DNA of 64,000 nt. Source: a virus. Both the position numbers and the translations under genes were made by a program. The notes beneath the pieces are model-generated. The model was not told the DNA's origin. It saw only the letters and a program-made list of their open reading frames with translations, and ran no database searches. Shown piece by piece: positions 11,253-40,600 of this stretch (positions are counted from its first letter, which is position 1; every line of letters starts with the position of its first letter). Where the stretch lies: IMG/VR virus record IMGVR_UViG_3300023180_000042, positions 1-64,000 of that record, one strand, 5' to 3'.

Positions 11253-14200
11253 ATGTCTTATCGTCCTCTCAAACACTTAAATGAAGGTGCGTTCAAAGAG
11301 CTACTGACTTCTGAAGAAGACTATCTGGCTTATCGAGCGGGTGTTCATTTAAGTAAAATGACAACAAGTGATTTGTCTGCGCTTTCTACTAACGCGGCAG
11401 GCGAACTTGTTGGTACGTTTGAAGACACTTTTTATACCTCTGGTCTAGGTCCCATTCCTGGCTCGACAATTACTCGCACAATTGCGATTACTCATGCATC
11501 TGATCCTGCTGGATCAACGCACACTTCTACGTTTGGTGCTTTCACGCCTTTACCCACTGTTGTTTATGTGGGAGACACAATTGAACTAACAATTCAAGGC
11601 ACAGCGACAAACACAGGCATTGGATTTGAAGAGATTGAATATCAGTTAGGTATTTCTGGTAGCGCGGCTATAGGAACTATTACTACGACTCCTTCGCCAG
11701 CGGCAACGAGTACGAGTGCAAACGGTCGAGAAGTATCGTGGGAAAATTATCCTGACGGCAATCTTAGCGGTTCTTATCAAGTCACGTGGTCTATTCCGAT
11801 TACCGATGATGGCGTAATCAACTTCACACTCAACGGTACTACTACTGATTTTCAAAACAGTGTTGTAAGTTCTACCGATGCTGAAGTGCTACCTTCTGTT
11901 CGTGTAGAGCCACAGTTGAAGCCAACTACTTCGGCTACACTGTATGAATTATATCAGAACGATGCGAATGTAGCAACCATCGACAACGACAATGCTCTAA
12001 AAAGAAATCCACTCTATTGGGATCGAACTGCAACGCCTGCTGGCTTGAAAGAAATGAGCGATGCAGAACTCGATATTGTAGTTCAAAGACTTCTTTTAAA
12101 AATCTTTGCAAACGATCTTCCCGGTCAGTATCGCCTTGCTACAGTATCTCCGGGCGCACAGTGGTCAGAGTTTATCGCAGATGTATTTGAAGACACTCGT
12201 GGTGACGGTTCACTTGTTACTTATTCTATCTGGGTCAAAACAACCGCAACAGTTCCGACAGTAGTTAAACCTATTTCGCCTTTACGTCAACCGTTGACTA
12301 ACAAGTTTCAAGGTATAAAGGATCTTAATGATTTAGAACTTGAAATGACTTTCGGCGAACGAATGAAGCAGGTTATTCAAGACACTGGCATTGGTAAGTA
12401 TCAACTTCGATCTTCTGCTGACGGACCACCTACAGATCCAGGTACGTGGGAAGCACGTGGTAGTGCAATCGATACAAACCTAACTTACGAATCTGAAACG
12501 GCTTATATTTCAACCGATTCGTATGATATTAACTACGCTTCGCAGTATCAAGGTTCATATGTTCCTGATTACATAGGCGAGTACATTGACACATACGAAT
12601 CCAACTATCTTGGTGAATACGGCGCTACTTATACATCATCTTATACTGGCAATTACGAGGCTACGTACATCGGTACGTTTAGTGGTGATTACGCGCAGAG
12701 TTATATAGGCGATTATCTTCTTGAGTACGCTCAATCTTATGAGAGTGGTTATGAAGGTGAATATGTTCCCAATTATTCGGGTCTTACTGTTGAAGAGCAG
12801 TACACGACCATTTACGAAGCTGAGGACGCGATTGAATTTTATGCGTCAGCATACGCAGAACTTTATGGTGATCTTCCTGTAATTTATACGGGCAACTATG
12901 TTACTCAGTACGTCGAGGAAGTTTATACAGGTAACTTTACGGAACTGTATGTCGGCGATTACGTCATAGACTATAGTGGTAACTTTACAGAAAATTACAT
13001 CGATGATGTCTATACAGGTAACTATATTGACGTATACACTGGCGACTACACAGAAAATTATGAAGGCAACTTTACCGTTAACTATATTCAAACTGAATAT
13101 GCCGGTAACTTTACACAGCCGTACACTGGTGATTTTACAGCCGCATACTCTACGTCTTATGCAGTTACTTACGCACAAGAAAACTATACTGGTAACTATC
13201 AATCAGATTATGCTTCTGAATATCAAGTGCCTTACACAGGCGACTTCTTAGCCACTTATATTCAGTTGATTTACGGTGGTAATTTCATCGAACAATACAG
13301 CGGTGACTTTACTGCAACTTATGCGGGCAACTTTACCGAAACTTATACTCAAGCCCAATATACTGGTAACTACTTGTCACAGTACGCTGGCAACTATCAG
13401 TCTGATTATTCTGGCGATTATATTGGAACTTATGAGCAACAGACTTACACGGGTAACTATATTTCTGATTACACGGGTAACTATCAGTCTCAGTATTCTG
13501 GTGACTTTACTGCCACTTATGCTCAAGCACAATACACAGGTGACTTCATTGTAAGTTACTCTGGTGACTTTATTGCTACATTCCAAGGACAGTATGAAGG
13601 CAATTATCAGTCTCAATACACTGGTAACTTCTTACAGGACTATACTGGTAACTTTATTCAAGGTTTTGAAGGACAATATCAAGGTAACTATCAAGTCAAC
13701 TATGACGGTAATTACATTTCGGACTATGTTACTGCTAGTTACACAGGCGACTTCTTGGCTGTTTATTCGGGCAACTTTGTAGAAACGTTCGAAGGTCAGT
13801 ACACTGGTAACTATCTTTCGACGTATGCTGGCAACTATACTTCAGATTACGTCGGCGATTTTGTTCAGACATTCCAAGGGCAATATGTCACTGTTTACGA
13901 AGAGCCGTATACCGGTAACTTTGTAAACACATTTATTTCTGCTGACTATACAGGCGATTACATCTCGCAATACGAGAGTAATTTCTTGCAAGCGTATTCT
14001 GGTAATTACGTCTCACTTTATGTGCAAGCCAACTATACTGGCAACTTCGCGGCTCAATATACTGGCGACTTTACCGCAAACTATCAAGGCGATTTTCTAA
14101 CTACATTCGTTGATGCGAACTACACTGGTAACTATGCTTCGGATTATGTTCGTGCGTCTTATACCGGTAACTTCCTAGCCACATATTCTGGCGATTTTCT

Positions 14201-17200
14201 TGCCTCTTATACCGGTGACTTTGTTACAACGTTCGTTGATGCGAACTATACTGGTAACTATGTTAGTCAATATTTGGGGACTCGGAATGTAACTTATTCG
14301 GGTAACTACATTTCGAATTACGCACAGGCGAACTATACGGGTAACTTCCTTGCAACATTCGTTGATGCAAACTACACAGGCAACTTCCTAGTAACTTATG
14401 CTGGCGACTTTACTGCTACATTCCAAGGGCAGTATCAAGGTGACTATGAGTCGGGCTATGCTGGCTCATTCGTCGCTCGATATACTGGTGACTTCTTAGG
14501 AACATTCCAGGGTCAATATGTTGGTGATTTCTTAGCCAACTATGATGGCAACTTTATTGCAAATTACGCTGGCGACTTCCTTGCTACGTTCCAAGGGCAG
14601 TATGTTGGTGACTATGTTGGTCAGTATACAAGACAAATCAACGTAGGCTATACAGGAAGCTTTCTGGCGACATTCCAGGGACAGTACACAGGTTCGTTTT
14701 CTCAAACTTATGTAGGGACTTACACAGGCACATATGTCGGTAACTACACTGGTACATATGTCGGAAACTATGCTGGTGCTTATGTATCGGCGGCAGCCAC
14801 TTATCAAGGTGGCTACGCCGGTGCTGCCGCTTGGACATCGTACTTCTTCAGTCTTAGTTCTCCTCGTTATTACTGGTATACGACACAAGCAAGATTTGCT
14901 TTTCCCGTAAACCGTTGGTTTTATTGGAATAATTCATTTCAATCATTGGCGAGCATTGCCAATGACGGATTAGTTCCCTTTTTTAGTCGCGGTTTTGAAT
15001 ATGAAGCGGGTACCATACAATATCAGACAGGATCGTCTTTAAGCACTCTCCGCAACTATTACAATATCAGACGCCGGTCAATTTTTGGTGGCTCAACATA
15101 CACTGGCGGATATACCGGCGGTGGCGGCACTTATACAGGAACATATGTTGGTTCGATTCAGCAAACCTATACTGGCTCGATTCAACAGTCGTACGATGGT
15201 AATTATATTGGCTCTGTTAACATAACATTCGTTGACGCAAACTATACTGGTGACTATCTTGGTCAGTATATACGAGCAATTAATCAAAGTTACACAAGTG
15301 TGTTCCAACAAACATTCGTTGATGCAAACTACACTGGTAACTTTATTGTTAATTATTCAGGCGATTATGTTTCTCGTTATACGGGCAACTTCCTTGCAAC
15401 GTTCGTTGATGCAAACTACTCTGGTAACTTCTTAGCGACATATACCGGCAACTATACTGGTGTATATGTTGGTAGCTTCCTTGCAACGTTTGTTGATGCA
15501 AACTATGTGGGTAACTATGTTTCGAACTATACCGGTGACTTCTTAGGAACGTTCCAGGGTCAGTACGTTGGTGATTTCTTAGCAACATTCCAAGGTCAGT
15601 ATCAAGGCGATTTTATTGCGAACTACGTTGCAACGTTCGAACAAAATTACACTGGTGACTTCCTTGCTACGTTCCAAGGCCAGTATCTGGGTAACTTTGT
15701 AACGCCTTATACTGGCAACTATATTTCAAATTATGCTGGCGACTTTACGGCGGCGTATACTGGAAACTATGTTGGCGATTTCTTAGCCACGTTCCAGGGA
15801 CAATATCTGGGTAACTTTACTGTACAATATACCGGTAATTATCTGAGTCAATATACTTCTGATTTCTTAGCCACGTTCCAGGGACAGTATGTCGGTGATT
15901 ACATTTCGAACTATAATGCAGACTTCAATACTCAGTATCAGTCAAACTTTACGGCAACGTTCCAGGGTCAGTACATTGGTGATTTCTTAGCAACATACAC
16001 TGGCACTTATGACACAATATATGTTCAAGCCGACTACACTGGTAACTTCGTCACAACATACAGTGGTGATTATATCTCTGATTACACCGGTGACTTTACT
16101 GCCAACTTCGTTTCACAGCAATACACTGGTGATTATATCTCTGATTACACTGGTAACTTTGCAGTAACGTATACTGGTAATTATCTCGGCGATTACGTTT
16201 CGCGATACACTGGCGACTACGTTGGAAATTACGCCGATCAAGTGTACGGTGGTGACTTTACTCAAGTCTATACTGGCGACTTTACGAATAACTACGTTGG
16301 CGATTATATTTCTACATACGCTCAAGCAGATTATTCTGGTAACTACGTATCAAATTATCAGGGTAACTTCACGGCGCAGTTCGAAGGTCAATACGTAGGC
16401 AACTTCTTAGAAGATTATACGGGCGACTTTACAGCTATTTACTCTGGTGACTTCCTTCAAGGATTTGCTGGTCAATACGAAGGTAATTATATTACTCCGT
16501 ATACCGGTGATTATATTTCAGCCTATACTGGTGATTTTCTTGCAACGTTTGAAGGTCAATATGTTGGCGATTTCATCGTACAATACACTGGTAACTTCAT
16601 CGAAACTTATGAAGCAGACTTCGTACAAGATTTTGAAGGTCAGTATACTGGTAACTATCAGTCTGACTATACTGGCGATTATGTCGCAATTTATACTGGT
16701 GACTTCTTACAGATTTTCCAAGGGCAATATGTCGGCGATTACGTAAAAGCATATATCGGCAATTATCAGTCAGCCTATACGGGCGATTTCGTATCGATAT
16801 TTGAAGGTCAGTACACCGGTGATTATCTGTCTGATTACACTGGTAACTATCAAGCAAATTATTCAGGCGACTATCTGTCTAACTTCGAAGGTCAGTACAC
16901 TGGTGACTTTATCGTAACATACACAGGCAATTACGAAGTAGACTACACGGGCGACTTTGTTGAATCATACACCCAAGATTATGAGCAAGACTACATAGAA
17001 GATTATGTTGCTCAAGAAGCATACGTAACGGCTTATGCTGGAAACTACACTCCAACATACGAAACAGTTTATACTGGTGATTATACTCCTGATTACGAAG
17101 GTCCATCGGGCGACTATTTAGGAACCTATCTTTCGAATTACACTGAAGAGTTGTATGCGCAAGAGTTTACGGTTGACTACATATCATTAGACTATACGAG

Positions 17201-17495
17201 AAATCGCGAAGAAAGTTACACTGGTGATTCTTATATAGAAACGTACACAACTGATTTCGAATCAAGTACTGATTACGCCACTTATTTGGGCGGTGATGAT
17301 AATGAAGAATATGTAGGAACATTTGAGGGCGCGGGAGATGCAGAAGTTTATGGTGGTTCTCCTTATGAAGGATCTAGTTACGTATCTGATTACAATCGAG
17401 TAGTTACCATCGCAGAAGCATATTTGGATGACGCTAAATTAACATCAACACCAGTAACAATTGAGACATTTACATTATACGTACGTGTTGCTTAA
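11253..17495 (+). CDS. Giant Tyr-Gly octad-repeat virion fibre-like protein
   Basis: 2080 residues. Residues 1-410 are non-repetitive, with an Ig-like beta region and a conserved-looking FQGIKDLNDLELEMTF block. From about 413 to 1960 the chain is built of octads [YF]-x-G-[ND]-[YF]-x-x-x (YTGNYVSQ, YSGDFLAT), spaced by 5-residue units such as FVDAN and by FQGQYxGDF variants. An island at about 1180-1280 rich in Trp/Tyr/Arg interrupts the repeats. The C-terminal 120 residues are acidic and then non-repetitive. No cysteine is seen and almost no Lys lies in the repeats. The regular aromatic spacing suggests a stacked beta structure (solenoid or fibre). Own late promoter; likely a long virion appendage (inference). 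Confidence 0.8.
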   Translation: MSYRPLKHLNEGAFKELLTSEEDYLAYRAGVHLSKMTTSDLSALSTNAAGELVGTFEDTFYTSGLGPIPGSTITRTIAITHASDPAGSTHTSTFGAFTPLPTVVYVGDTIELTIQGTATNTGIGFEEIEYQLGISGSAAIGTITTTPSPAATSTSANGREVSWENYPDGNLSGSYQVTWSIPITDDGVINFTLNGTTTDFQNSVVSSTDAEVLPSVRVEPQLKPTTSATLYELYQNDANVATIDNDNALKRNPLYWDRTATPAGLKEMSDAELDIVVQRLLLKIFANDLPGQYRLATVSPGAQWSEFIADVFEDTRGDGSLVTYSIWVKTTATVPTVVKPISPLRQPLTNKFQGIKDLNDLELEMTFGERMKQVIQDTGIGKYQLRSSADGPPTDPGTWEARGSAIDTNLTYESETAYISTDSYDINYASQYQGSYVPDYIGEYIDTYESNYLGEYGATYTSSYTGNYEATYIGTFSGDYAQSYIGDYLLEYAQSYESGYEGEYVPNYSGLTVEEQYTTIYEAEDAIEFYASAYAELYGDLPVIYTGNYVTQYVEEVYTGNFTELYVGDYVIDYSGNFTENYIDDVYTGNYIDVYTGDYTENYEGNFTVNYIQTEYAGNFTQPYTGDFTAAYSTSYAVTYAQENYTGNYQSDYASEYQVPYTGDFLATYIQLIYGGNFIEQYSGDFTATYAGNFTETYTQAQYTGNYLSQYAGNYQSDYSGDYIGTYEQQTYTGNYISDYTGNYQSQYSGDFTATYAQAQYTGDFIVSYSGDFIATFQGQYEGNYQSQYTGNFLQDYTGNFIQGFEGQYQGNYQVNYDGNYISDYVTASYTGDFLAVYSGNFVETFEGQYTGNYLSTYAGNYTSDYVGDFVQTFQGQYVTVYEEPYTGNFVNTFISADYTGDYISQYESNFLQAYSGNYVSLYVQANYTGNFAAQYTGDFTANYQGDFLTTFVDANYTGNYASDYVRASYTGNFLATYSGDFLASYTGDFVTTFVDANYTGNYVSQYLGTRNVTYSGNYISNYAQANYTGNFLATFVDANYTGNFLVTYAGDFTATFQGQYQGDYESGYAGSFVARYTGDFLGTFQGQYVGDFLANYDGNFIANYAGDFLATFQGQYVGDYVGQYTRQINVGYTGSFLATFQGQYTGSFSQTYVGTYTGTYVGNYTGTYVGNYAGAYVSAAATYQGGYAGAAAWTSYFFSLSSPRYYWYTTQARFAFPVNRWFYWNNSFQSLASIANDGLVPFFSRGFEYEAGTIQYQTGSSLSTLRNYYNIRRRSIFGGSTYTGGYTGGGGTYTGTYVGSIQQTYTGSIQQSYDGNYIGSVNITFVDANYTGDYLGQYIRAINQSYTSVFQQTFVDANYTGNFIVNYSGDYVSRYTGNFLATFVDANYSGNFLATYTGNYTGVYVGSFLATFVDANYVGNYVSNYTGDFLGTFQGQYVGDFLATFQGQYQGDFIANYVATFEQNYTGDFLATFQGQYLGNFVTPYTGNYISNYAGDFTAAYTGNYVGDFLATFQGQYLGNFTVQYTGNYLSQYTSDFLATFQGQYVGDYISNYNADFNTQYQSNFTATFQGQYIGDFLATYTGTYDTIYVQADYTGNFVTTYSGDYISDYTGDFTANFVSQQYTGDYISDYTGNFAVTYTGNYLGDYVSRYTGDYVGNYADQVYGGDFTQVYTGDFTNNYVGDYISTYAQADYSGNYVSNYQGNFTAQFEGQYVGNFLEDYTGDFTAIYSGDFLQGFAGQYEGNYITPYTGDYISAYTGDFLATFEGQYVGDFIVQYTGNFIETYEADFVQDFEGQYTGNYQSDYTGDYVAIYTGDFLQIFQGQYVGDYVKAYIGNYQSAYTGDFVSIFEGQYTGDYLSDYTGNYQANYSGDYLSNFEGQYTGDFIVTYTGNYEVDYTGDFVESYTQDYEQDYIEDYVAQEAYVTAYAGNYTPTYETVYTGDYTPDYEGPSGDYLGTYLSNYTEELYAQEFTVDYISLDYTRNREESYTGDSYIETYTTDFESSTDYATYLGGDDNEEYVGTFEGAGDAEVYGGSPYEGSSYVSDYNRVVTIAEAYLDDAKLTSTPVTIETFTLYVRVA
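12490..17130 (+). repeat. Coding tandem repeats, Tyr-Gly-Asn/Asp octads
   Basis: In-frame 24-base units encoding [YF]-x-G-[ND]-[YF]-x-x-x, well over one hundred by eye. Codons vary freely between units (TATACTGGTAAC, TACACAGGCGAC, TACACGGGTAAC), so the array is old and held by protein selection rather than recent DNA duplication. Some segments, such as those coding TFVDANYTGN, recur almost unchanged at the DNA level (for example near 14105, 14230, 14360, 15315, 15405), suggesting limited later exchange. Confidence 0.85.
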
Positions 17496-28832: not shown

Positions 28833-29567
28833 ATGGCAACTGTAAAAATATCGCAACTGGCACCAATGATCGGGACTCCTGATAGCGATGATTTTATTGC
28901 AATCGTTGACGCCAGTTTGTCAGAGACAAAAAGAATTCTGGTCAGTGATTTTCTTTCAGGAATTGATAGCGTTGCGAATGCAACATTTGCCATTCAAGCC
29001 ACTTATGCTGATAGCGCACTTGATGCTAGATTTGCAGTTGTAGCAAATAGAGCATTTGTCGCTGATAGCGTTGCAGTTGCGGCTTCGGCATTAACTGCTG
29101 ACGCCGCTGACAGTGCAACAAATGCAACGAATGCAATCCTTGCTCTAAGGGCAAACAGTGCTGACAGTGCGACAAACGCAACTTTCGCTAATTATGCTCA
29201 ACGGGCTGAAACTGCCGACAGCGCCACAACAGCCGCTTTTGCATTCAGAGCGGATTACTTAACGTTAGATAGTGTTGGTAACGCCACTTTCGCATTTACT
29301 GCTGACAGTGCAAATAGAGCAACGCGAGCAATTTTTGCTGATCGAGCAGGATTTGCAGATTATGTCAGTCAAGATAGCGACCTTATTTGGGGCGCCGCGG
29401 CGCCATCATCTGTTGATAGTGCACTTGATTATTTGAAAAACAATCTGAATGCTTATTCTACTGACAGTGCTGCCCTCTGGACTGGTTCAGCACCAACAAC
29501 GATTGATAGTGCTTTAGACAGATTGGCACTTGTTGTTAGAACATTGAATGGCGGTACTGGCGCATAA
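28833..29567 (+). CDS. Fibre-like paralogue 1: shared N-domain plus Ala-Asp-Ser repeats
   Basis: 244 residues. The N-terminal about 40 residues (VKISQLAPM, DDFIAIVDASLSETKRI) are paralogous to the next three genes. Residues about 45-175 are Ala-rich pseudo-heptads around ADSATNATFA and NRATRAIFADRAG, which fit a trimeric helical or mixed shaft. Two copies of a motif of the form APSSVDSALDYL / APTTIDSALDRL close the protein. Probably a short fibre or adaptor. No late promoter; starts 12 bases after gp15. Confidence 0.6.
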   Translation: MATVKISQLAPMIGTPDSDDFIAIVDASLSETKRILVSDFLSGIDSVANATFAIQATYADSALDARFAVVANRAFVADSVAVAASALTADAADSATNATNAILALRANSADSATNATFANYAQRAETADSATTAAFAFRADYLTLDSVGNATFAFTADSANRATRAIFADRAGFADYVSQDSDLIWGAAAPSSVDSALDYLKNNLNAYSTDSAALWTGSAPTTIDSALDRLALVVRTLNGGTGA

Positions 29568-29571
29568 CCTA

Positions 29572-29579
29572 TATAAATA
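29572..29579 (+). promoter_or_regulatory. T4-type late promoter
   Basis: Exact TATAAATA in the 41-base gap between fibre paralogues 1 and 2, 37 bases before the ATG at 29609. Confidence 0.8.
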
Positions 29580-29608
29580 AGAGAAAGATTTTCAATTGAG
29601 GATATAAA

Positions 29609-30322
29609 ATGGCAATTGCAGGCGTTAAAATATCGAGTCTTCGGGAGCTGACTAATGCCGAAGATAATGATTACATCGTCATCAATGACTTTAGCACGAC
29701 CACTACTAAGAAGATTAGTAGGGAAAATTTTCTTAGGAACTCTACTAACGTAAGAGACTCTGGTGAGAATGGCGCGTTTATCCAAACGCTTACGTGCAAC
29801 TCCCTTGACGTAAACGTGGATGCGGCTATTAATGGATCGACAACTATTGGTGCTGATCTTAGTGTTAATGGCACCATTACTTTTGATAATCTAAAAGACG
29901 CTGTTGAGAACATTATCATCACTAAGTTTGTTGATGAAGCGGACGGTATTTCGTCTAATGACGATGACGTTTCTATTCCTACATCTGCGGCTGTTAAAGA
30001 TTACGTCGATGGTGCTGTATCTGACCATCGTGCAAAAATTGTACATGGCGAAACTCAGAATGGTTTGAGTCTTGTCAATCAACTGAAAGTCTATCAAACA
30101 GAATATGTAAAAGAAGTAGGCGCCTTTGAAGAAGGAATCTTTGATTCGTTAATTGCACATGAGGTACAAGAGATTGTTCCTTATGTTGTGCTTGGTGAAA
30201 AAGATGCTGTACATCGTGACGGTAAGCCTAACTATCAGAAAATTAATTATCAGAAATTGGTACCCATATTGATCACTGCTATTCAGGAGTTGTCAAGACA
30301 AATTGAAGAACTTAGGAGCTAA
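29609..30322 (+). CDS. Fibre-like paralogue 2 with C-terminal Peptidase_S74 chaperone
   Basis: 237 residues. N-terminal paralogous domain (GVKISSLRELTN, DYIVINDFSTTTTKK), short shaft (DLSVNGTITFDNLKDAV), then the intramolecular chaperone auto-processing domain of phage fibres and endosialidases. The autocleavage motif S-D-x-R-x-K is intact (S138, R141, K143), followed by HEVQEIVPYVVLGEKDAV and a C-terminal helix. By analogy with EndoNF, cleavage before S138 would release about 100 residues after trimerisation. Very short for an S74 fibre, so most of the shaft is missing or supplied by a partner. Confidence 0.8.
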   Translation: MAIAGVKISSLRELTNAEDNDYIVINDFSTTTTKKISRENFLRNSTNVRDSGENGAFIQTLTCNSLDVNVDAAINGSTTIGADLSVNGTITFDNLKDAVENIIITKFVDEADGISSNDDDVSIPTSAAVKDYVDGAVSDHRAKIVHGETQNGLSLVNQLKVYQTEYVKEVGAFEEGIFDSLIAHEVQEIVPYVVLGEKDAVHRDGKPNYQKINYQKLVPILITAIQELSRQIEELRS

Positions 30323-30325
30323 ACA

Positions 30326-31798
30326 ATGCCAGGCGTAAAGATTACAGACTTAGAAGAATTAGCACAAGCGCCTGCTGATGATGACATTCTTGTCATTGTC
30401 GATCTTGATGCAAACGCTACTAAGTTTATTTCAGTTGAAAATCTTCTAGAGCCAGCAAGTGCGGCGGCATCTGCCGGCACTGCTGACAAACTTCTGATCG
30501 AAGCGACTGATGCAGATGTTACATTTTATCTGGGTATGTTTCCTAACGCGCCTGGCACACCAGCGGCAGACTCCTGTAAAGTTGATACTGACTTAAGATA
30601 TAACGCACTTACAAACACGCTGACAACTGGATTCTTTGCAGGTAACGGTGCTAATCTAACGGGCGTTCTTGCAGATAGTGCCGCAAGAGCAACAACTGCG
30701 ATTGAAGCCCAACGAGCATTATTTGCAGAAGCCGCTCTAAGTGCTGATAGCGCAGACTTTGCGACTCAAGCAGTTTCAGCAGAACGAGCAGACAGTGCAA
30801 CAAACGCGACCAATGCTGTGTTTGCAACAACTGCGAACTTTGCGTTTGGTGCTGACAGTGCAAACAGAGCGACCACAGCAATTCAAGCGGATCGCGCAAC
30901 TCAAGCAGATAGTGCAATCAATGCCACTTTAGCAAATACTGCTTTGACTGCAAACTTTGCTATCGATGCAGATAGCGCAAACTATGCTACAACTGCTGGC
31001 TTTGCGCTAACTGCTGGCAATGCTGAAACTGCTGATAGTGCTGTCAATGCTACATTTGCAAACACCGCATTAACTGCTGAGAACGCAATTACTGCTGACA
31101 GTGCTATTAATGCATCGAATGCGGTATTAGCCGATGTTGCTGAACTTGCTAGACGCCTTGGAAACTTTATTGATTCTGCAACAGGATCAAGAGCCCTTGG
31201 TGATCTGAAAGTAGATAGCGATTTGATTGTACAAGGCGACATTCGAAGCGTAAACGGAATTTTTTACGGTGATGGATCTGGCTTAACAAACGTTACTAGT
31301 ACGACTGTGGCTTTGGCGACTCAGCAAACCGATGCCAAAGCTATTGACTCGGCGGGCAAACACTATCTCATGTTGCGTACCGTAGAGTTAGGATATGATA
31401 GTGTTGCCACTACTGCACTTCTTACTTATGATCCCGCAACATTTACACTCAGCGCAAATGCATTCTCTGGCGATGGCTCTAACTTAACAAACGTTACTGC
31501 TATTCAAGCGACCAACGCAGAAAACGTTGATGTAACAACTGTTGGCGATAGTGCGCTTTATTTTGTGCATTTAGGAAGTACCACATCTGGTAATGATAAC
31601 GTCAACGTAAACACAAACCTAACCTACAATCCATTAAGAGGCAGACTATCTGCAACAATTTTCGATACTGGCGAATGGGAAGTGTACGAGAGTGCGGGTA
31701 ACTTAACTTTTGCACACAACGGTACGAAACAGATGAGTCTTTCTGAGAATGGTGATCTTGCTATTGCTGGCACACTGTCTCAAAGTGCAACAATATAA
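30326..31798 (+). CDS. Fibre-like paralogue 3: Ala-Asp-Ser repeat shaft
   Basis: 490 residues. N-terminal paralogous domain (GVKITDLEELAQ, DDILVIVDLDANATKFIS). Residues about 115-275 are Ala-rich repeats around DSATNATNAVFATTA and ADSANYATTAGFAL. The remainder carries GDGSGLTNV / GDGSNLTNV motifs common in long phage fibres and a beta-rich tip (WEVYESAGNLTFAHNGTKQM). No enzymatic motif. Starts 3 bases after paralogue 2. Confidence 0.65.
   Translation: MPGVKITDLEELAQAPADDDILVIVDLDANATKFISVENLLEPASAAASAGTADKLLIEATDADVTFYLGMFPNAPGTPAADSCKVDTDLRYNALTNTLTTGFFAGNGANLTGVLADSAARATTAIEAQRALFAEAALSADSADFATQAVSAERADSATNATNAVFATTANFAFGADSANRATTAIQADRATQADSAINATLANTALTANFAIDADSANYATTAGFALTAGNAETADSAVNATFANTALTAENAITADSAINASNAVLADVAELARRLGNFIDSATGSRALGDLKVDSDLIVQGDIRSVNGIFYGDGSGLTNVTSTTVALATQQTDAKAIDSAGKHYLMLRTVELGYDSVATTALLTYDPATFTLSANAFSGDGSNLTNVTAIQATNAENVDVTTVGDSALYFVHLGSTTSGNDNVNVNTNLTYNPLRGRLSATIFDTGEWEVYESAGNLTFAHNGTKQMSLSENGDLAIAGTLSQSATI
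30660..31135 (+). repeat. Coding Ala-Asp-Ser repeats
   Basis: In-frame degenerate repeats coding ADSAxxAT(T/N)A within fibre paralogue 3; a shorter array of the same kind lies at about 28975-29370 in paralogue 1. Spacing is near-heptad, consistent with a trimeric shaft. Confidence 0.65.
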
Positions 31799-31801
31799 AT
31801 A
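31794..31801 (+). promoter_or_regulatory. T4-type late promoter overlapping a stop codon
   Basis: Exact TATAAATA; bases 31796-31798 are the TAA stop of fibre paralogue 3. Lies 38 bases before the ATG at 31832. Confidence 0.8.
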
Positions 31802-31831
31802 TTGACAGCCGCAAAGTATTGAGGAAATAAA

Positions 31832-33253
31832 ATGGCAGACATTAGAATTTCAGAATTGCAAGAATTGATCAACGTTCAAGACAGTGACGTTCTTGTGATC
31901 AATGATATTACTGCGGCTACTACCAAAAAGATTACTCGTGATCGCTTTCTTGTAGGCATCACACGGAACGTTTTTGACTCCGCAAATAACGCAGTTGTAA
32001 AGCAAGACTTAAAGGTCAACAACGATCTGATCGTTGGTGGTGATATCGAAGCGACAGGTGATATTTCGTTTGGTTCATTGACCGACGTTACTGCTGGTAT
32101 TACAGCACTTCGATTTATTGGCACTGGTATTGAAAATAATGACAGTAATGGTGCTATTCCAACTGCGGCGGCTGTTGCTGATTATCTCGATTACTTCTTG
32201 CAGGATCTTTATGACTCTGCTACACTACCAGTCACGCTCAATGCGTTGACAGATGTTAGTATTGTCACGCCACTCGCAAATGAAGTTCTAAAGTACGATG
32301 GCTCAAACTGGATCAATGCGATTGACTCTGCGGGTATTACAAATCTTGGTGCACTTGATGATGTAATCATTTCAAGTCTTACTGACGGTCAGGCACTGAA
32401 GTATAATGGATCTTACTGGGTAAACGCAACTGACTCAGCCGGTCCAACTAATCTTTATCAGCTAGACGATATTTTTATCGACTCAGCACTGTCGGCTAAT
32501 CCTCTTACGACTGGACAAGTTCTCAAGTGGAACGGAACTAAGTGGGCTAACGCTAACGACTCTAGCGGTGGTGGCGGTGGTGCTGGCGGTGGACTCGACA
32601 GTGCGCTGACATTGCAACTGATTAGTTCGTCTGTCAATCTGAATACGCTTTCTGGTGTAGCAATCTCTGCACCCTCGACAAATCAGGTTCTCAAGTACAA
32701 TGGGTCTCAGTGGGTAAATGCCGCTGACTCTGTTGGTGCTGGCGGAAGTAATGCTCTCAACGATTTGACCGATGTTGTCATCTCAACACCTAGCACGAAT
32801 CAAGTTCTGAAGTATAATGGTTCTAACTGGGTAAATGCGGCTGACTCCGTTGGCGGAGCTGGCGCTGGTTTATCGTCTCGCGGCACATTCAATACTGTCA
32901 CCGCTTCGTTGAGCAATAATGACTCAGTAGACGTGAACATTACTGGAGCATATAAAGGTTATTCGATGCTCAAGATTCAAACAGACGTTGCGGCATGGGT
33001 AAGAGTCTACACTGATTCGGCTTCGCGTACTGCTGATCTCGGTCGGCTTTCGTCAGAAGATCCAGCACCAGGCTCTGGTGTTGTAACTGAGGTAATCACA
33101 TCGGGTGCAGAGACAATCAACTTGGCTCCTGGACCTATCGGCTTTAACAATTCGTCGCCCGTAACTGACACTATTCCTATCAAGATCGTAAATCTAAGTG
33201 GAGGTGCATCCGCGGTCGACGTTACACTTACGGCGTTGAAGCTTGAAGCATGA
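31832..33253 (+). CDS. Fibre-like paralogue 4 with LKYNGSxWVNA repeats
   Basis: 473 residues. N-terminal paralogous domain (DIRISELQELINVQDSDVLV, TKKITRDRFL). Residues about 135-345 hold five copies of a roughly 40-residue fibre repeat with core VLKYNGSxWVNAxDS (one variant is VLKWNGTKWANANDSSG) separated by Gly-rich linkers. The C-terminal domain (GYSMLKIQTDVAAWVRVYTD and ETINLAPGPIGF) resembles the tip domain of fibres in marine T4-likes. Probably a receptor-contacting or decoration fibre. Overlaps the subtilisin gene by 4 bases. Confidence 0.7.
   Translation: MADIRISELQELINVQDSDVLVINDITAATTKKITRDRFLVGITRNVFDSANNAVVKQDLKVNNDLIVGGDIEATGDISFGSLTDVTAGITALRFIGTGIENNDSNGAIPTAAAVADYLDYFLQDLYDSATLPVTLNALTDVSIVTPLANEVLKYDGSNWINAIDSAGITNLGALDDVIISSLTDGQALKYNGSYWVNATDSAGPTNLYQLDDIFIDSALSANPLTTGQVLKWNGTKWANANDSSGGGGGAGGGLDSALTLQLISSSVNLNTLSGVAISAPSTNQVLKYNGSQWVNAADSVGAGGSNALNDLTDVVISTPSTNQVLKYNGSNWVNAADSVGGAGAGLSSRGTFNTVTASLSNNDSVDVNITGAYKGYSMLKIQTDVAAWVRVYTDSASRTADLGRLSSEDPAPGSGVVTEVITSGAETINLAPGPIGFNNSSPVTDTIPIKIVNLSGGASAVDVTLTALKLEA
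32235..32865 (+). repeat. Five coding repeats, LKYNGSxWVNA module
   Basis: Five in-frame modules with the core LKYNGSxWVNAxDS inside fibre paralogue 4. The last two are nearly identical in protein (ISTPSTNQVLKYNGSNWVNA, ISAPSTNQVLKYNGSQWVNA), pointing to a recent duplication. Confidence 0.8.
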
Positions 33254-36200
33254 CATTAAAAGTCTATCACGTCATATTGCATCGTACAGAGGATCTGGAT
33301 GCATTTTATGCTGATATGGAGACGCCGGGAGGCTATCTCCATATACCAGATCGTGCTGTTGATTATGCCGCAAGGCTTCCTTTCAGTAAAGTCACTGCAT
33401 ATCGTCTAACAGACGAAGAAGCGGAACAAGTAAAACAAGATCCTCGTGTTCGTGCAGTTGAACCTGCACTTGAAGACCACGGCATTTTTGCGAAGCCCAC
33501 TTGGACCGATACTGGTCAATGGCGCAAAGATGACGGCGCAAACGCAACAAACAGTCAACAAAACTGGGCTTTGTATCAGTGTACCCGAGATACAATCTCT
33601 ACCACATATGGCACAGACGGCACAGCACTTGTCATATCACAAACTTCAGCCAATGCTGAAGGAAAAGACGTTGATGTCATTGTTGTCGATGGCATTCCCA
33701 ATTTAGATCACCCAGAATTTGCTGTCAATGCTGACGGCACGGGTGGATCACGCATCATTCAATACAACTGGTTTCAACATACTGATTCTGTTACGGGCGG
33801 TGCATATGCAAATGGAACGTGGGATTATACTACAGAATCGCTAGGTGATTCAGAAAACAATAACCATGGCACACACGTCATGGGCACAGTTGCGGGTAAT
33901 AGACAGGGTTGGGCACGAAAAGCAAATCTGTACTCGATCAGTCCGTATGGTTCTAACTACAATTGGACATCTACTGGCATTAGTTCTAGTTATGTATTTG
34001 ACTACGTACGAGCGTTTCATCGAAATAAAAGCATCAATCCTAGAACTGGTCGAAAGAATCCAACGATTATTAACAACAGTTGGGGTTACTCGTACCCTGA
34101 TACAGGCAATATCATCGACTCAGCTGGATCAGTAGAGCGAATTGTCTTTCGAGGAACAACGTACAACGGTCCCTTTACGACCGAGCAAATGCTAAACTAT
34201 GGTGTTCCACCTTATTGGGCTTACACAAAAGCCGCGGTCGACGCTGGTATTCCTATTGAAGTTGCTGATGGTGTCTATACCACTCCGCCAGCAAAAGTCA
34301 CAAGCATTGGATGGAAGCTTACAACTCCCGCAACAAAAACACAAGAGTGCATCGACGATGGAATCATTGTGGTTTCTGCGGCGGGTAACAGTTCTCAGTA
34401 CATTGATTCGTCGAATGGCGATGATTATAATAATAAGTTGTTTTTAAAATATAATGCGTTTCCTGCTACCATCTCTGCATTTCAAGGAGCGAGCGATTCA
34501 GCGATATACTATCATCGAGGGTCAGCACCCGGAAATACTTCGTTGTGTATTGGTAATGCATCCATCTATCAAAACAATCAGAGAGAATTTTCAAGCAACT
34601 TCGGTCCTAGAATCGATCTCTTTGCGCCTGGTGATGAGATCATTAGCGCAATTCGTCACAATGATTTTTATGACAACATCGTAACTGATCCAAGAAATGC
34701 ATCATACTATTACGGAATCATTGGTGGCACAAGTATGTCTGCACCTCAGGTGACAGGTGTTCTTGCATCTATTCTTCAGATTAATCCAGACTTTAGACAA
34801 GCAGACGCAAAGAGATACATTCAAGGCACAGCATTCACAGGTGCGATGTTCGATTCTTCAACTGATTGGGGAAATGTCACAACGTATGGCTGGAATACTC
34901 TTTATGCTTTGAGTACAGATTTAAAAGATACAGTTGACTTGTATCTTCGTTATAGAGAAGAACGTGCAAGTGTTGGTGTCACACTTCCAAAAATAAATAA
35001 TAGAGAAAGACCAACAACGGGTGTTCTTTGGCCTAGACCTAAAGTTATTAAGACACGCAGAAGCACTGGTGATATTCTTTATCCTTCGCCTGATGCTGAT
35101 CTTGCACTAGCACCGCTTGACGCTCAAACTTCATATGCGGGTACTTTCACGGCTAACTTTGTGGGCGATTCTGCTATTACATATACGGGTGACTTCACAA
35201 CTGATTACACAAGTATTGACATATACGTCAATGACAGCACAGGACTAGATTATAGCCCAGCCTATGCGAGTGGTTATATTGGCGACTTTACTGCTGTTTA
35301 TACGGGAAATTATCTTGGAGCGTATGAAGGAAATTATAATCTAACTTATGCAAGTACAGCGTATCTAAGTCGTTATAGTGCGACAGACTACATTGGGTCG
35401 GATGGTTCATATGAAACCAGTTATAATAGCTTTTACGAAGGTCCATCGGGCACCTATTTAGCAACTTACGTGGGCACGATGGCGTACTTTGGTGATTATG
35501 TGGTATCACCCGACGAACTAGATTACACTACTGACTACGGCGTTGGCATAAAGTATACGGGAGATTATCAAGGTCCTGCACATCCGGGCTTTGAAACAAA
35601 TTATATTGGTTCTTATCAGTCTGAAGTTCAAGAAGGTGGTGGCACGTTCTTGGATTCAGTAACATACTCCGGTAACTTTATTAGTGATTACTCAAATCCA
35701 ACAGACTATGTATCTGATTATACAGGTAACTATGTAGCAAACTACCTTGCTACTATTATAGTTTACTCGTCTGAGTATATTTCCAATTACGCCGGTAATT
35801 ATACTCTTGAAGGCTATACTGGAGACTTTCTTGCCAACTTTACTGGAACTGAAGCATATACTTCAGACAGTGCGGGTGACGGCGCTATCATAATTTCAGA
35901 TTATCTGGGAACATATACTGGAAACTATGTTGACTCTGGTGATGCATCATACATTGGATCTTACTTGGGCGACTTCAGTGCGAATTACACAGGTAACTTC
36001 TCATCTAATCTAGAATACACTGGTGGAGATGGCGGCACATATTTGGGCGCATATCTAGGAAACTTTAGTGCGATTTACACAGGCAATTATGTCGGTGGGG
36101 CTTACCAGGCAACTTATGTCGGTGCATCGAACACTTCGTTGAATGTAACGAACAATGGTGCTTCTAACTACATTATTGATAGTGCATCGAACCCAACGTT

Positions 36201-36531
36201 GACACTTGAAAGAGACACTACATATACATTTAACTTAAGTGTCGGTGGACATCCGTTCTGGATTAAGACAGCGGCAACTACTGGAACTGGCGATCAGTTC
36301 AATACTGGTGTGACAAACAACGGCGCAGAAACAGGCACGTTGACGTTTACTCCTGACTCTGCCGCACCAAGTACTCTCTACTACATCTGTCAGTACCATA
36401 GCGGAATGGTAGGCACTATAAATATTGTTGCCGCCGGTTCTACAGACTACGTTACTGTCTTTACCGGTGTCGATCAAGAAAATTATATAGGTGACTTTAC
36501 AACATCGTTTACAGGCGGCTACAATGCATAA
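33250..36531 (+). CDS. Subtilisin-like protease fused to Tyr-Gly octad repeats and a cupredoxin domain
   Basis: 1093 residues. Residues 1-78 look like an I9-type propeptide (LTDEEAEQVKQDPRVRAVEP). Residues about 138-550 form an S8 subtilase with a full triad: D147 (VIVVD), H206 (NNHGTHVMGT), S495 (GGTSMSAP), plus oxyanion N380 (AAGNS). From about 628 to 955 come the same octads as the giant protein upstream (YTGDFTTD, YTGNYLGA). Residues about 960-1062 form a plastocyanin/azurin-type domain with candidate type-1 copper ligands H1001, C1047, H1050 and M1053 (CQYHSGM, the amicyanin C-x2-H-x2-M spacing). No signal peptide, so likely a virion protein. Confidence 0.85.
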   Translation: MTLKVYHVILHRTEDLDAFYADMETPGGYLHIPDRAVDYAARLPFSKVTAYRLTDEEAEQVKQDPRVRAVEPALEDHGIFAKPTWTDTGQWRKDDGANATNSQQNWALYQCTRDTISTTYGTDGTALVISQTSANAEGKDVDVIVVDGIPNLDHPEFAVNADGTGGSRIIQYNWFQHTDSVTGGAYANGTWDYTTESLGDSENNNHGTHVMGTVAGNRQGWARKANLYSISPYGSNYNWTSTGISSSYVFDYVRAFHRNKSINPRTGRKNPTIINNSWGYSYPDTGNIIDSAGSVERIVFRGTTYNGPFTTEQMLNYGVPPYWAYTKAAVDAGIPIEVADGVYTTPPAKVTSIGWKLTTPATKTQECIDDGIIVVSAAGNSSQYIDSSNGDDYNNKLFLKYNAFPATISAFQGASDSAIYYHRGSAPGNTSLCIGNASIYQNNQREFSSNFGPRIDLFAPGDEIISAIRHNDFYDNIVTDPRNASYYYGIIGGTSMSAPQVTGVLASILQINPDFRQADAKRYIQGTAFTGAMFDSSTDWGNVTTYGWNTLYALSTDLKDTVDLYLRYREERASVGVTLPKINNRERPTTGVLWPRPKVIKTRRSTGDILYPSPDADLALAPLDAQTSYAGTFTANFVGDSAITYTGDFTTDYTSIDIYVNDSTGLDYSPAYASGYIGDFTAVYTGNYLGAYEGNYNLTYASTAYLSRYSATDYIGSDGSYETSYNSFYEGPSGTYLATYVGTMAYFGDYVVSPDELDYTTDYGVGIKYTGDYQGPAHPGFETNYIGSYQSEVQEGGGTFLDSVTYSGNFISDYSNPTDYVSDYTGNYVANYLATIIVYSSEYISNYAGNYTLEGYTGDFLANFTGTEAYTSDSAGDGAIIISDYLGTYTGNYVDSGDASYIGSYLGDFSANYTGNFSSNLEYTGGDGGTYLGAYLGNFSAIYTGNYVGGAYQATYVGASNTSLNVTNNGASNYIIDSASNPTLTLERDTTYTFNLSVGGHPFWIKTAATTGTGDQFNTGVTNNGAETGTLTFTPDSAAPSTLYYICQYHSGMVGTINIVAAGSTDYVTVFTGVDQENYIGDFTTSFTGGYNA
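35140..36110 (+). repeat. Coding Tyr-Gly octad repeats in the protease
   Basis: In-frame degenerate units coding [YF]-x-G-[ND]-[YF]-x-x-x, less regular than in the 2080-aa protein and broken by spacers, between the subtilase and cupredoxin domains. The unit definition is the same, so the two proteins share this module. Confidence 0.8.
36417..36424 (+). promoter_or_regulatory. Possible internal late promoter
   Basis: Exact TATAAATA inside the 3' end of the subtilisin gene, 107 bases before the ATG at 36524. Spacing is longer than at other sites and the bases are coding (GTINIV), so it may be chance. Confidence 0.35.
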
Positions 36532-39500
36532 TGGATTTCTAGACAAAAGAAGAAGACATCTCAACCTGCGTGAAATGCAGGTCGAGAACGTGTTGCCTGA
36601 ACATTTTGCTCAGTTCTATCCTAAGTTTATCGCTCTGCTAAAAAACTACTACGAGTGGCAAGATCAGAACGATCCTAACGAGTTGTTAAATCATCTCTTC
36701 GCTGTTCGTGATATTAACGAAACTGACATCACACTACTCTCGTTTATCGAGGACGAGTTTCTTTTGGGTGAAGCATACTTCGAAGGCTTTGGTACAGAAG
36801 ACTTTGAAAAGCGAGCCGCCGCAAACTTCTCTAATACTCTGTTCAGATCAAAGGGTACAAAGTTTGCTATCGAATGGTTCTTTAGATCATTCTACGGTCT
36901 AGACGCTGACGTAATTTATCCAAAAGAAAACGTTTTCACACTAAACAATCCAAATTCGCAGGTTGGTCCTGACTCGTTGAGATACTTGACCAATGATAAG
37001 TTATATCAAACGTTCGCTCTGTTAATACGTGTTGGTGTGCCTATTTCAAAGTGGCGAGATATTTTCAAACTGTTTGTTCATCCTGCGGGCATGTATCTTG
37101 GTGCTGAAGTGTCGGTTGACGATGTTGTTACTCCAGCAATCAACGCTGTCATGCAAGACTCTGCTGTGGATCAGAGACCTTCTCCTGTTTGGACGCTAAC
37201 ACGCTTTCTTGATAGTGCGGGTCGTTACGGTGAAGCTTACATCGGCGATCCTGTATACAACACACTGACAGGTAATATCGATAGTGTTCCAGAAGGAACA
37301 ATATTTAAGTATAAAATTAGCGGCACAAATATTCCAGCTGGTACAGGCACTGTTCGTTATTTTGTTGATCCTGCTGGTGGTGATCTTGCCAGTGATACAT
37401 CAACAAATGACTTCTACAATTTCGATTCGGCGGGCGCATTCAACTACACGCCGCCGTATGAAGTGCCTCTTAGAAGCAGTAAAGCAATTTTGCAGTTACA
37501 GCAAGACAGTCCGCTGGGACCTGCGTTTGGTTACTTTACAATACCAACAGGCATTGATAGTGTCGAAACAGAAGGTCAAGAAGCATTTACTGTATTCGTT
37601 GAAGACGTTGGTGAAAGAACCATCGCGTCCGATCGTGTAGTGTTAAACGATGTCATTACAAGATATCAAATGACACCCTTTGATCCTGTTGACGAAGGAA
37701 ATAATCTTTCGATTTTTGTATCGCACGGCTCAGGTTCTCTTTATGATGGTAACCCCAATACGAAAGCGTGGAATAGCACAACGCTGTACTGGTATGGTAA
37801 ACATATTTCAACAACCGATTCTGATTTTGTCACGCCGTTGCCTGACTCAAGCAGTCCACAACCCGTAAATATTAGACCAGCATCGATCAGTGGAAATCCT
37901 CCTAACGTCGGAACTGTGTCAGAAGGTTTAATCACTATTCCGATTCGTGGCGACACGGTATCAGAAAGCACAGAGCATTTCGCTGTAATACTTGAGACGT
38001 TCGAAGGAATTAAGAAAGACTCTGTAACTGTTGCGATTAACAACACAGCGGCTACGTTTACGGTCACACCGAGCGCGGCGAGCTATACTGAAGGTGATAC
38101 TCTTTCATTTACAATCAATCATAGTTCGCAAGATGGTGGCGATACAGTCACATGGCAATTTACTGGCGGGATAGCTAGTGATCCACGTCCACTTGCAACT
38201 TCTGGATCGTTTAACTTAAATAGCGGCACATCGACAACATTTAGCATTCAAGTTCGGGCTGATACTATTCAACGAGGTACAGTCGGAGGATTTTTTCAAG
38301 TTACGAATAGTAAATACAGTCCTGCTCTCGTAGCAACCTCTTCTGGTTTCAACGTGTTCGATCAAAATCCAGTATACAATCTTACGATGAATCCTACAAC
38401 CGCAAATGAAGGTGATACTGTTACATTCGATGTGTCTGGAAGCAACATTACTGACGGCACTTATTATCTTCAGATTGGTAATGTCGGCACAAATAATTTA
38501 GATTTCTTAACGTATGCTGGCAATGGAGGAGCTCCTGGACAAGGATTAAACTCACGTGCTTCAATTACGGTAACAAACAATAGTGGAACAAGTTCATCTC
38601 TTGTTTTTGCTGACAGTTCCGAAACTGCTGATGAATCTTTTTATGCGTATCTTCATTCAGATCCTGTAGTGTTCGATCCGCTTGTTTCTTCGTTAAATCA
38701 GATTCGTGGTGGTGCGGCGGCTACTTACACTCTTACTCCGAACAAAACACGTGTTCCAGAAGGTGAGACTTTAACGTTTACATTTACAACGACTGGCGCT
38801 GACGGAATATTCGATTGGCAAGTACGAACGTCCGACACTTTCTTAACTTTTGATGGATTACGAGGCTTAACGCCAAATGACTTTGGTAAACTAAATCCCA
38901 CCACAGGCGAGTGGGATGTCGATGAGCCTACAAATGTAGGACTGTATTCCTATTCGCAATTGCCATACGGAGATGAAGCAAGCGAAGGAAATGGAATGGT
39001 AGTTTCTGGTGGAACAGGAACGTTCTCGTTGCTAATTCGTGATGATGGTCAAGACGAAGATTCAGACGAACAAGATTTCTGGGCAATTGTTAAAAACAGT
39101 TCGGGTGTAACACTCGCTCAGTCTGCTTCTGTTCGTATCATCGATGCAGACGCAGTTGATTATAATCTGTACGTTGTTGAGCAAACGGGTGTGCGCGATA
39201 GTGCTGTTACAGAAGGTACTGAGAGTCTTGTATTAAACTTTACGACGAATGCGGCAGTTGACGAAAACTTGTATTTTGAATTGCAAAAGTCAGATGCTCT
39301 TGGTAGCCCTTGGTCTAGCAAATGGACAAACAATGCACAAAAATACATACCCTTTGCTGAAACTGATCCAGCATCTACAGCGATAAAACTTTTGTATACG
39401 CAAAATGGTGGTGCTGACATGGGCGCACCAATATTTGATGGCACATACGAAGGCGAGCAATTTGGCGTAGCGTATCTATCACGAAACGATTTTGCAAGTA

Positions 39501-40600
39501 ATGGTGGTGACGTACTCGACACAATGACGTTCTCTGTACTAGATGCGCCTGCAACATGGACATTAACTGCTAGCCCTTCGACTACTGTAGACGAAGGTGA
39601 TGCAATTTCGTGGAGTGTTGGTGGAACTAATATTCAAGACGGCACGTACTATTATAACATTACTGACTATGATGTAATTGAAACCGATCAAAGTGGTTCC
39701 GGTTCGGGGCAGTCTGCGATTCGCACAAGTGATCCAGAAGCACTGAACATTCCAAATGGCAGTGTATGTATTAACAATGCAAATGTGCCAGGAACTGTTA
39801 CAGGCGCATTTGCTGTGACCGTCAGTGGTTCTATATTATATTATCAAATCAACATGAGCGAAAACTTAACTGCAACCGTTCAGAACGCACGGCTAGTATT
39901 TGGCAGTGAAGAAGCTTTGGCTGACTTTAACTCAGGATCGGCAGGCACGTTCACTATGACAAGTAATAGTGGTGGATTTGCTACGTCTACAGCCACAAAT
40001 GACGATACGATTGATGACACATACACAATGGCTATATATGATCGAGCAGGTCCAACAGCACCAGCGGCAAGTGTAGGATTTACAATCACTGATACGACTG
40101 TGGGCGGTCCTGGTGGACAATCTACAGTGAACTTTGTTGCCGAACCCAGCATTGGCGGGTTCTTTGTCGCTGATCTGAAAGTTGTTACTGATGCAGATGC
40201 TCTTGCTACGGCGATATCATCCGTAGAGATTCGACCAGATGGTGGAGTATACGGAAAAGGCAATCTTGATCCTTTAGGCAGTAATGGAGTAACATTTATT
40301 AAGATCGGCACATGGCATCAATCAGCGACTACTACAGGTAACTTTACCGTAAGGGCTGAAATTATTTCTGGTCCTACTCTCACGTCAGTAGCACAGGGTA
40401 GCTACGGAACAGACTTATCATTGTCTTCTACTCAGTCTTGGTCGCATCAAGTGCGAGTCCGAGCGCCGAATTCTAGATTTACTTCAATGCAAGTTAGATA
40501 TACGATTACCGATGATGCTGATCCTACAAACACAGCTAGCCAAAACATAGTGTTTAACAGCGAAGTTGAATACATCGGAAATGCAGTAGAAACTCCATAA
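36524..40600 (+). CDS. Large virion protein with Calx-beta-like modules
   Basis: 1358 residues from the ATG at 36524, which overlaps the protease stop; an upstream TTG at 36491 is less likely. The N-terminal about 200 residues (VLPEHFAQFYPKFIALLKNY, RSKGTKFAIEWFFRSFYGLD) form an all-alpha domain typical of a structural protein encoded before gp16 in marine T4-likes. The rest holds at least four Calx-beta-like beta modules, each opening with a variant of YTEGDTLSFTI (NEGDTVTFDV, PEGETLTFTF, DEGDAISWSV). Calx-beta modules usually bind calcium and occur in adhesins. No enzyme motif. Probable tail- or neck-attached fibre. Confidence 0.7.
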   Translation: MHNGFLDKRRRHLNLREMQVENVLPEHFAQFYPKFIALLKNYYEWQDQNDPNELLNHLFAVRDINETDITLLSFIEDEFLLGEAYFEGFGTEDFEKRAAANFSNTLFRSKGTKFAIEWFFRSFYGLDADVIYPKENVFTLNNPNSQVGPDSLRYLTNDKLYQTFALLIRVGVPISKWRDIFKLFVHPAGMYLGAEVSVDDVVTPAINAVMQDSAVDQRPSPVWTLTRFLDSAGRYGEAYIGDPVYNTLTGNIDSVPEGTIFKYKISGTNIPAGTGTVRYFVDPAGGDLASDTSTNDFYNFDSAGAFNYTPPYEVPLRSSKAILQLQQDSPLGPAFGYFTIPTGIDSVETEGQEAFTVFVEDVGERTIASDRVVLNDVITRYQMTPFDPVDEGNNLSIFVSHGSGSLYDGNPNTKAWNSTTLYWYGKHISTTDSDFVTPLPDSSSPQPVNIRPASISGNPPNVGTVSEGLITIPIRGDTVSESTEHFAVILETFEGIKKDSVTVAINNTAATFTVTPSAASYTEGDTLSFTINHSSQDGGDTVTWQFTGGIASDPRPLATSGSFNLNSGTSTTFSIQVRADTIQRGTVGGFFQVTNSKYSPALVATSSGFNVFDQNPVYNLTMNPTTANEGDTVTFDVSGSNITDGTYYLQIGNVGTNNLDFLTYAGNGGAPGQGLNSRASITVTNNSGTSSSLVFADSSETADESFYAYLHSDPVVFDPLVSSLNQIRGGAAATYTLTPNKTRVPEGETLTFTFTTTGADGIFDWQVRTSDTFLTFDGLRGLTPNDFGKLNPTTGEWDVDEPTNVGLYSYSQLPYGDEASEGNGMVVSGGTGTFSLLIRDDGQDEDSDEQDFWAIVKNSSGVTLAQSASVRIIDADAVDYNLYVVEQTGVRDSAVTEGTESLVLNFTTNAAVDENLYFELQKSDALGSPWSSKWTNNAQKYIPFAETDPASTAIKLLYTQNGGADMGAPIFDGTYEGEQFGVAYLSRNDFASNGGDVLDTMTFSVLDAPATWTLTASPSTTVDEGDAISWSVGGTNIQDGTYYYNITDYDVIETDQSGSGSGQSAIRTSDPEALNIPNGSVCINNANVPGTVTGAFAVTVSGSILYYQINMSENLTATVQNARLVFGSEEALADFNSGSAGTFTMTSNSGGFATSTATNDDTIDDTYTMAIYDRAGPTAPAASVGFTITDTTVGGPGGQSTVNFVAEPSIGGFFVADLKVVTDADALATAISSVEIRPDGGVYGKGNLDPLGSNGVTFIKIGTWHQSATTTGNFTVRAEIISGPTLTSVAQGSYGTDLSLSSTQSWSHQVRVRAPNSRFTSMQVRYTITDDADPTNTASQNIVFNSEVEYIGNAVETP

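Follow-up and report, generated by a model that had tools for sequence, protein, structure and literature searches.

Several phages encode proteins that resemble, in part or over their whole length, the product of the gene described here, which lies in a 64,000-nucleotide stretch of DNA from a tailed phage (the window). The proteins of S-H9-1, S-CAM4 and ACG-2014e (phrog_9158) share with it an I9-like prodomain region, a subtilase (S8) domain, a C-terminal cupredoxin with an H-C-H-M ligand set and, directly upstream, a fibre gene ending in a domain that we call UD, but they lack the Tyr-Gly repeats between protease and cupredoxin, and protease identity is about 28-32%. SCREM1_165 of S-CREM1 (annotated "peptidase") and the proteins of S-H38 and Sf-FR1 ("subtilisin-like serine protease") are likewise S8 family members that have a UD gene upstream and baseplate or virion-protein genes nearby, but consist of the protease only, no cupredoxin having been found in them. 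The cyanophage baseplate wedge or tail-fibre connector proteins (gp9/gp10-like) of phrog_677 end in the same cupredoxin domain and have no protease. Secreted-looking proteins from Flavobacteriaceae, PS1-clade alphaproteobacteria, Myxococcales and other bacteria carry the same domain, at up to about 60% identity; unlike the phage proteins they are cellular, and many have lipoprotein-like or signal-like N-termini. In proposed organisation only, we liken the locus to the T2/S16-type gp37-gp38 pair, a trimeric fibre with a separate tip protein, although gp38 is a polyglycine-helix adhesin and not an enzyme (PMC12892980).

The component domains are already known, and the family is present, unnamed, in PHROGs. 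In the literature that we searched, most subscription journals lying outside its scope, an S8 peptidase common to P-HM1 and P-HM2 is mentioned (PMC3037559); beyond that mention, it yielded no description of cupredoxins in phage tails, of subtilases on fibres or of S8 proteins in cyanophages. Nor did we find there any account of UD paired with a protease, of that protease being replaced or of a copper-site domain grafted repeatedly into these proteases, and all three are apparently new.

Results

Domain composition of the S8 protein

The open reading frame is real, and its start ATG shares bases with the stop codon of the fibre gene upstream (ATGA). All seven residues singled out by a first-pass annotation of this DNA (D147, H206, S495, H1001, C1047, H1050 and M1053) occupy the positions it gave them, and subtilase, Tyr-Gly repeats and cupredoxin are, as it held, combined within one phage protein (Table 1). 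Judged by its intact D147/H206/S495 triad and its family motifs (DG, HGTH and GTSM), the product is a member of peptidase family S8 (subtilases); Peptidase_S8 (PF00082, Pfam) matched residues 138-535 with an E value of 5e-27, and subtilisin and proteinase K are among the PDB matches of the domain. The propeptide had been described as I9-like, for which the fold order speaks and the Pfam score does not: in the full-length AlphaFold2 model its secondary structure runs beta-alpha-beta-beta-alpha-beta, as expected for I9, while PF05922 (I9) gave 17.3 bits against a gathering cut-off of 21.2, and we therefore call it I9-like only. The same model is readable over the prodomain and the S8 domain and of low confidence over the repeats and the cupredoxin (pLDDT about 20-50). 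No hydrophobic N-terminal segment was found in the 1093-aa protein, in agreement with the reported absence of a secretion signal.

The repeats, described earlier as octads linking protease to cupredoxin, do link the two, with periods of 4 and 8: the Tyr/Phe autocorrelation peaks at those lags, there are 53 Tyr in a stretch of 340 residues, and the repeats briefly return C-terminal of the cupredoxin. The same repeats make up most of a 2080-aa tail-region protein of the window (ORF 11253-17495), which has no cupredoxin and whose counterpart in phage C48C1 is 3347 aa long.

Table 1. Features of the fibre and protease region, with positions in the window
Feature	Position	Strand	Basis or remark
Accessory fibre/protease block between sheath-stabiliser and small terminase genes	28833-40600	+	
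Upstream fibre protein, 473 aa	31832-33253	+	co-conserved partner gene
UD, ~130-aa C-terminal domain of upstream fibre protein	32858-33250	+	directly before S8 genes
S8-cupredoxin protein, 1093 aa	33250-36531	+	open reading frame confirmed
I9-like N-terminal prodomain, residues 1-78	33250-33483	+	sub-threshold PF05922; fold order in model
Subtilase (S8) catalytic domain, residues 138-535	33661-34854	+	PF00082; PDB matches
Catalytic Asp147	33688-33690	+	Asp in 71/73 aligned rows; remaining 2 gapped
Catalytic His206	33865-33867	+	His in 72/73 aligned rows; remaining 1 gapped
Oxyanion-hole Asn380	34387-34389	+	column invariant, alignment A2
Catalytic Ser495 (GTSMSAP)	34732-34734	+	invariant in A2; Ser in 45/45 ungapped rows
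Tyr-Gly repeats of 4/8 residues, residues about 625-957	35122-36120	+	autocorrelation; same repeats in ORF 11253-17495
Cupredoxin domain, residues 957-1063	36118-36438	+	AlphaFold2; Foldseek
Predicted copper ligand His1001	36250-36252	+	44/46 copies
Predicted copper ligand Cys1047	36388-36390	+	41/46 copies
Predicted copper ligand His1050	36397-36399	+	42/46 copies
Predicted copper ligand Met1053	36406-36408	+	42/46 copies
Downstream gene with Baseplate_wedge match	36524-40600	+	ATG overlaps S8 gene end

The cupredoxin and its putative copper site

Copper-bind (PF00127, plastocyanin/azurin family, Pfam) scored 15.8 bits on the C-terminal domain, below its cut-off of 21.2. An AlphaFold2 model of the domain, built from 38 relatives, has a pLDDT of 93.6, and all 47 of its Foldseek matches in the PDB at E <= 0.001 are of cupredoxin fold (lowest E 2.6e-5), among them rusticyanin, AcoP, plastocyanin, pseudoazurin, NirK, multicopper oxidases and a CuA domain. 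As modelled, the domain is a beta-sandwich of the cupredoxin superfamily. Cys1047 lies at a strand end, His1050 and Met1053 in the loop toward the last strand, and His1001 before a strand; this placement matches type-1 sites, and the four residues stand at the canonical type-1 places with the spacing C-x2-H-x2-M. The structure prediction proposed in the first-pass annotation thus confirmed the fold in the model, with ligands placed by strand and loop position.

The ligands are also kept in homologues. All four are present in 40 of 46 distinct copies, which have a median identity to the window copy of about 42% and were gathered via the protease, the UD domain or tblastn and not by ligand motifs, the profile that scored them having been trained on a pattern-fetched, biased set, so that some bias may remain. 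The six exceptions comprise one truncated copy, one permuted copy from S-CAM1, one partial match and three with ligands lost (L264, L306 and L342). The pattern-fetched set itself shows the four ligands unvarying in 52 of 52 copies, a figure that is partly circular because some of the search patterns included the ligands. The domain is under purifying selection (dN/dS 0.11-0.16). Between the window and a second locus, L012, the cupredoxin is 89% identical (dN/dS 0.11), and the protease part is far diverged (S8 65%, repeats 43% identity). From residue conservation and the predicted structure, the cupredoxin probably binds copper.

Occurrence of cupredoxins and of S8-cupredoxin fusions

The same cupredoxin domain was found in 315 phage records, nearly all from cyanophages. 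The proteins that carry it are often annotated as gp9/gp10-like baseplate connectors or as tail fibres, with which a fold search of viral proteins agrees, and some tail-region proteins from phages with other hosts (Pelagibacter, Actinomycetia) have it too. The suggestion that protease and cupredoxin form a combination not previously described is contradicted by single proteins containing both in S-H9-1, S-CAM4, ACG-2014e/i/j, AG-345-P14 and many metagenomic phages. We accordingly rejected a unique fusion, the combination being found in GenBank, UniProt/BFVD (ACG-2014e) and PHROGs, where the window protein matches phrog_9158 over its full length (E 2.4e-115; residues 3-1059 against profile positions 5-695 of 696).

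The two domains are joined in several ways. P-SSM2 and Sf-CH8 encode them in adjacent genes, and in three contigs that we take from their IMG identifiers to be of freshwater type (L095, L101 and L134) the cupredoxin is inserted within the S8 domain, between the His and Ser regions. S-CAM1_094 (L268:4380-6641) has it inside the S8 domain as well, between the Asp and His regions; here the C-x2-H-x2-M strand is placed ahead of the remaining cupredoxin and the four ligands are kept, apparently a circular permutation as read from the sequence, and the catalytic Asp position seems by eye to be Glu. A cellular subtilase with a P-domain, from an Opitutus MAG (Verrucomicrobia; L244:2-4672), has the same cupredoxin near its C-terminus. 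In a tree of 114 S8 proteins, the 22 with a cupredoxin fall into 13 separate groups requiring 12 changes, a count that does not distinguish gains from losses, rests on many weakly supported nodes and leaves out one truncated row. The domain sits at three or more positions in these proteases, including inside the catalytic domain, and is often absent. Its scattered distribution on the tree, together with a locus of the window's own lineage (L017) that has protease and repeats and no cupredoxin, marks it as a mobile, optional module, built into or lost from proteases several times.

A conserved pairing of fibre and protease genes

The fibre-gene context proposed earlier was supported, but the first-pass annotation missed the conserved pairing of the S8 gene with the fibre gene upstream. 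Of 66 distinct S8 genes, 59 have UD immediately upstream, and most S8 start codons either overlap the UD stop or lie 0-7 nt away. Counted from the other side, the next gene after 71 UD fibre genes encodes an S8 protein in 58 cases (13 with a cupredoxin), a cupredoxin protein without S8 in 2 and something else in 11; these loci were fetched mainly via UD, as the best 80 of at least 589 confirmed loci, with a profile built from copies preceding S8 genes, and the census therefore favours copies near the window's own. UD ends no more than 3 residues from the fibre C-terminus in 70 of 71, and is conserved up to its last residues, with an invariant Glu at the end and no evident processed tail. Neither the window's UD nor its homologues had a Pfam or PDB match; UD-related stretches number at least 589 in IMG/VR and occur in phrog_9627/15343.

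In one phage a sedolisin (L301:646-2298; S53; Pro-kuma_activ, E 2e-15) stands right behind the UD fibre gene, in the subtilase's usual place, and with the protease replaced in this manner, proteolysis looks like a kept property of the arrangement. The pairing is not obligatory, since in another (L275) a baseplate-wedge-like gene comes straight after the UD gene, with no protease between. In S-H9-1 (second copy), Sf-CH1b and S-SCSM1 the protein encoded after UD is of another family, and P-SSM2, Sf-CH8 and S-T4, which have S8 relatives, do not appear among the phages listed as matching UD. The UD protein of S-CREM1 begins with T4_gp9_10_N, and the S8 gene of this phage is found among baseplate genes. 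Taken with the UD-protease pairing, this points to a baseplate-mounted fibre with an exchangeable protease either carried at its distal end or serving that end.

Genomic neighbourhood, host and probable virion location

The nearest named phage is C48C1 (large terminase 73%, major capsid 66% identity), in which the sheath-stabiliser and small terminase genes abut; the block that lies between them in the window is absent and is thus accessory. Within the block are a sub-threshold S74 match (29609-30322) and a fibre-like protein with Ala-Asp-Ser-Ala repeats (30326-31798) that matches a Chlorovirus glycoprotein repeat (PF06598, E 8e-10). A relative of the downstream baseplate gene (L275:4866-8969) has a sub-threshold Hint/intein-like match at residues 1223-1263. 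Because C48C1 has no recorded host and the OM43 phage Melnitz is also near the window by its major capsid protein, we do not claim a cyanobacterial host.

A virion location, which had been thought probable, is supported by analogy with a distant S8 relative: S-SCSM1_228 carries the GenBank note "virion protein" and has lectin-like Laminin_G_3 domains, and mass spectrometry detected 45 S-SCSM1 proteins in virions (PMC9602691). The S8 group of S-SCSM1_228 is a divergent one, in which UD is not directly upstream. By this comparison, the window's S8 protein is probably located on the virion as well.

Discussion

We lean, by a modest balance of probability, toward a protease that is associated with the fibre, is exchangeable and acts on proteins of the host surface, the copper-binding module being optional. 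The upstream, overlapping gene would make a tail or baseplate fibre ending in UD, and the S8 protein would associate with this fibre, most likely docking on UD at the distal end, much as gp38 is pictured on gp37. The I9-like prodomain would be removed autocatalytically, and the mature protease would, on the virion, cleave host surface proteins during adsorption. The Tyr-Gly repeats may be shaft material, common to another long tail-region protein of the same phage. The cupredoxin would be optional, a type of module widespread on the fibres of marine phages and presumably binding one copper ion, and a role in stability or surface binding seems more likely for it than catalysis.

A protease at adsorption is the most likely role, and a maturation protease for the fibre comes second. 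In the latter case, unlikely in our estimation, the S8 protein would work inside the cell during infection, with its partner fibre or itself as the target. Autocatalysis is the usual way in which I9-type prodomains are removed, fibres are known to have self-cleaving chaperones of the S74 type, and the block contains a sub-threshold S74 match; these points, and the tight coupling with the fibre gene, fit a role in assembly. However, UD is conserved to its terminal Glu and shows no evident tail that is processed off, an enzyme for processing alone has no obvious need for fibre repeats or a cupredoxin, and the lectin-like domains of S-SCSM1_228 suggest an outward role. A more specific form of the adsorption reading, which we regard as improbable, would make UD a general dock at fibre tips to which exchangeable proteases, subtilase or sedolisin, attach, with a copper-loaded cupredoxin tuning or targeting the protease on the host surface.

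The cupredoxin itself might serve in other ways. PMC11705849 discusses tail-fibre iron and the Trojan Horse hypothesis, and a copper counterpart of this "Ferrojan/Trojan horse" idea, in which fibre copper would aid adsorption via a host metal-uptake or redox surface protein, could draw on the iron-bearing fibre precedent, on the 315 mostly cyanophage records and on a copper site kept despite low background identity and through the apparent permutation in S-CAM1_094. We hold it to be quite improbable, the domain also occurring in phages of other hosts (Pelagibacter, Actinomycetia) and some copies having lost the ligands. The degenerate copies and the sub-threshold Pfam matches would suit a cupredoxin that is metal-free in vivo and only an Ig-like decoration of the fibre, to which we give marginally less credence; the retention of four ligands by 40 of 46 copies whose median identity is about 42%, and by the permuted copy, speaks against it. 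Copper-dependent oxidation or cross-linking of the Tyr-rich repeats had also been raised, and such repeats do flank the cupredoxin in the window lineage. A lone type-1 copper site is without an O2-reducing centre, however, and repeats and cupredoxin occur apart: S-CAM4, S-H9-1 and ACG-2014e have S8-cupredoxin proteins without repeats, L017 has S8 and repeats without a cupredoxin, and ORF 11253-17495 has repeats without a cupredoxin. This activity is therefore very improbable.

The window gene is one case of a widespread, apparently undescribed arrangement in which a fibre gene with a particular end domain is followed by a protease gene, and the pair brings out that domain, UD, as one not described before. 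Polysaccharides are what most of the described fibre or spike enzymes cut, and little is known about receptor-binding and surface-degrading enzymes in cyanophages and related aquatic phages; a swappable fibre-protease gene pair is a testable candidate for how such phages handle protein surface layers. That several hundred sequenced phages carry copper-site domains makes the part of metals in marine virions a concrete question. On the improbable reading that UD is a dock for such proteases and a copper-loaded cupredoxin tunes or targets them, this would be a phage fibre with a metal-assisted protease cutting its way to the receptor.
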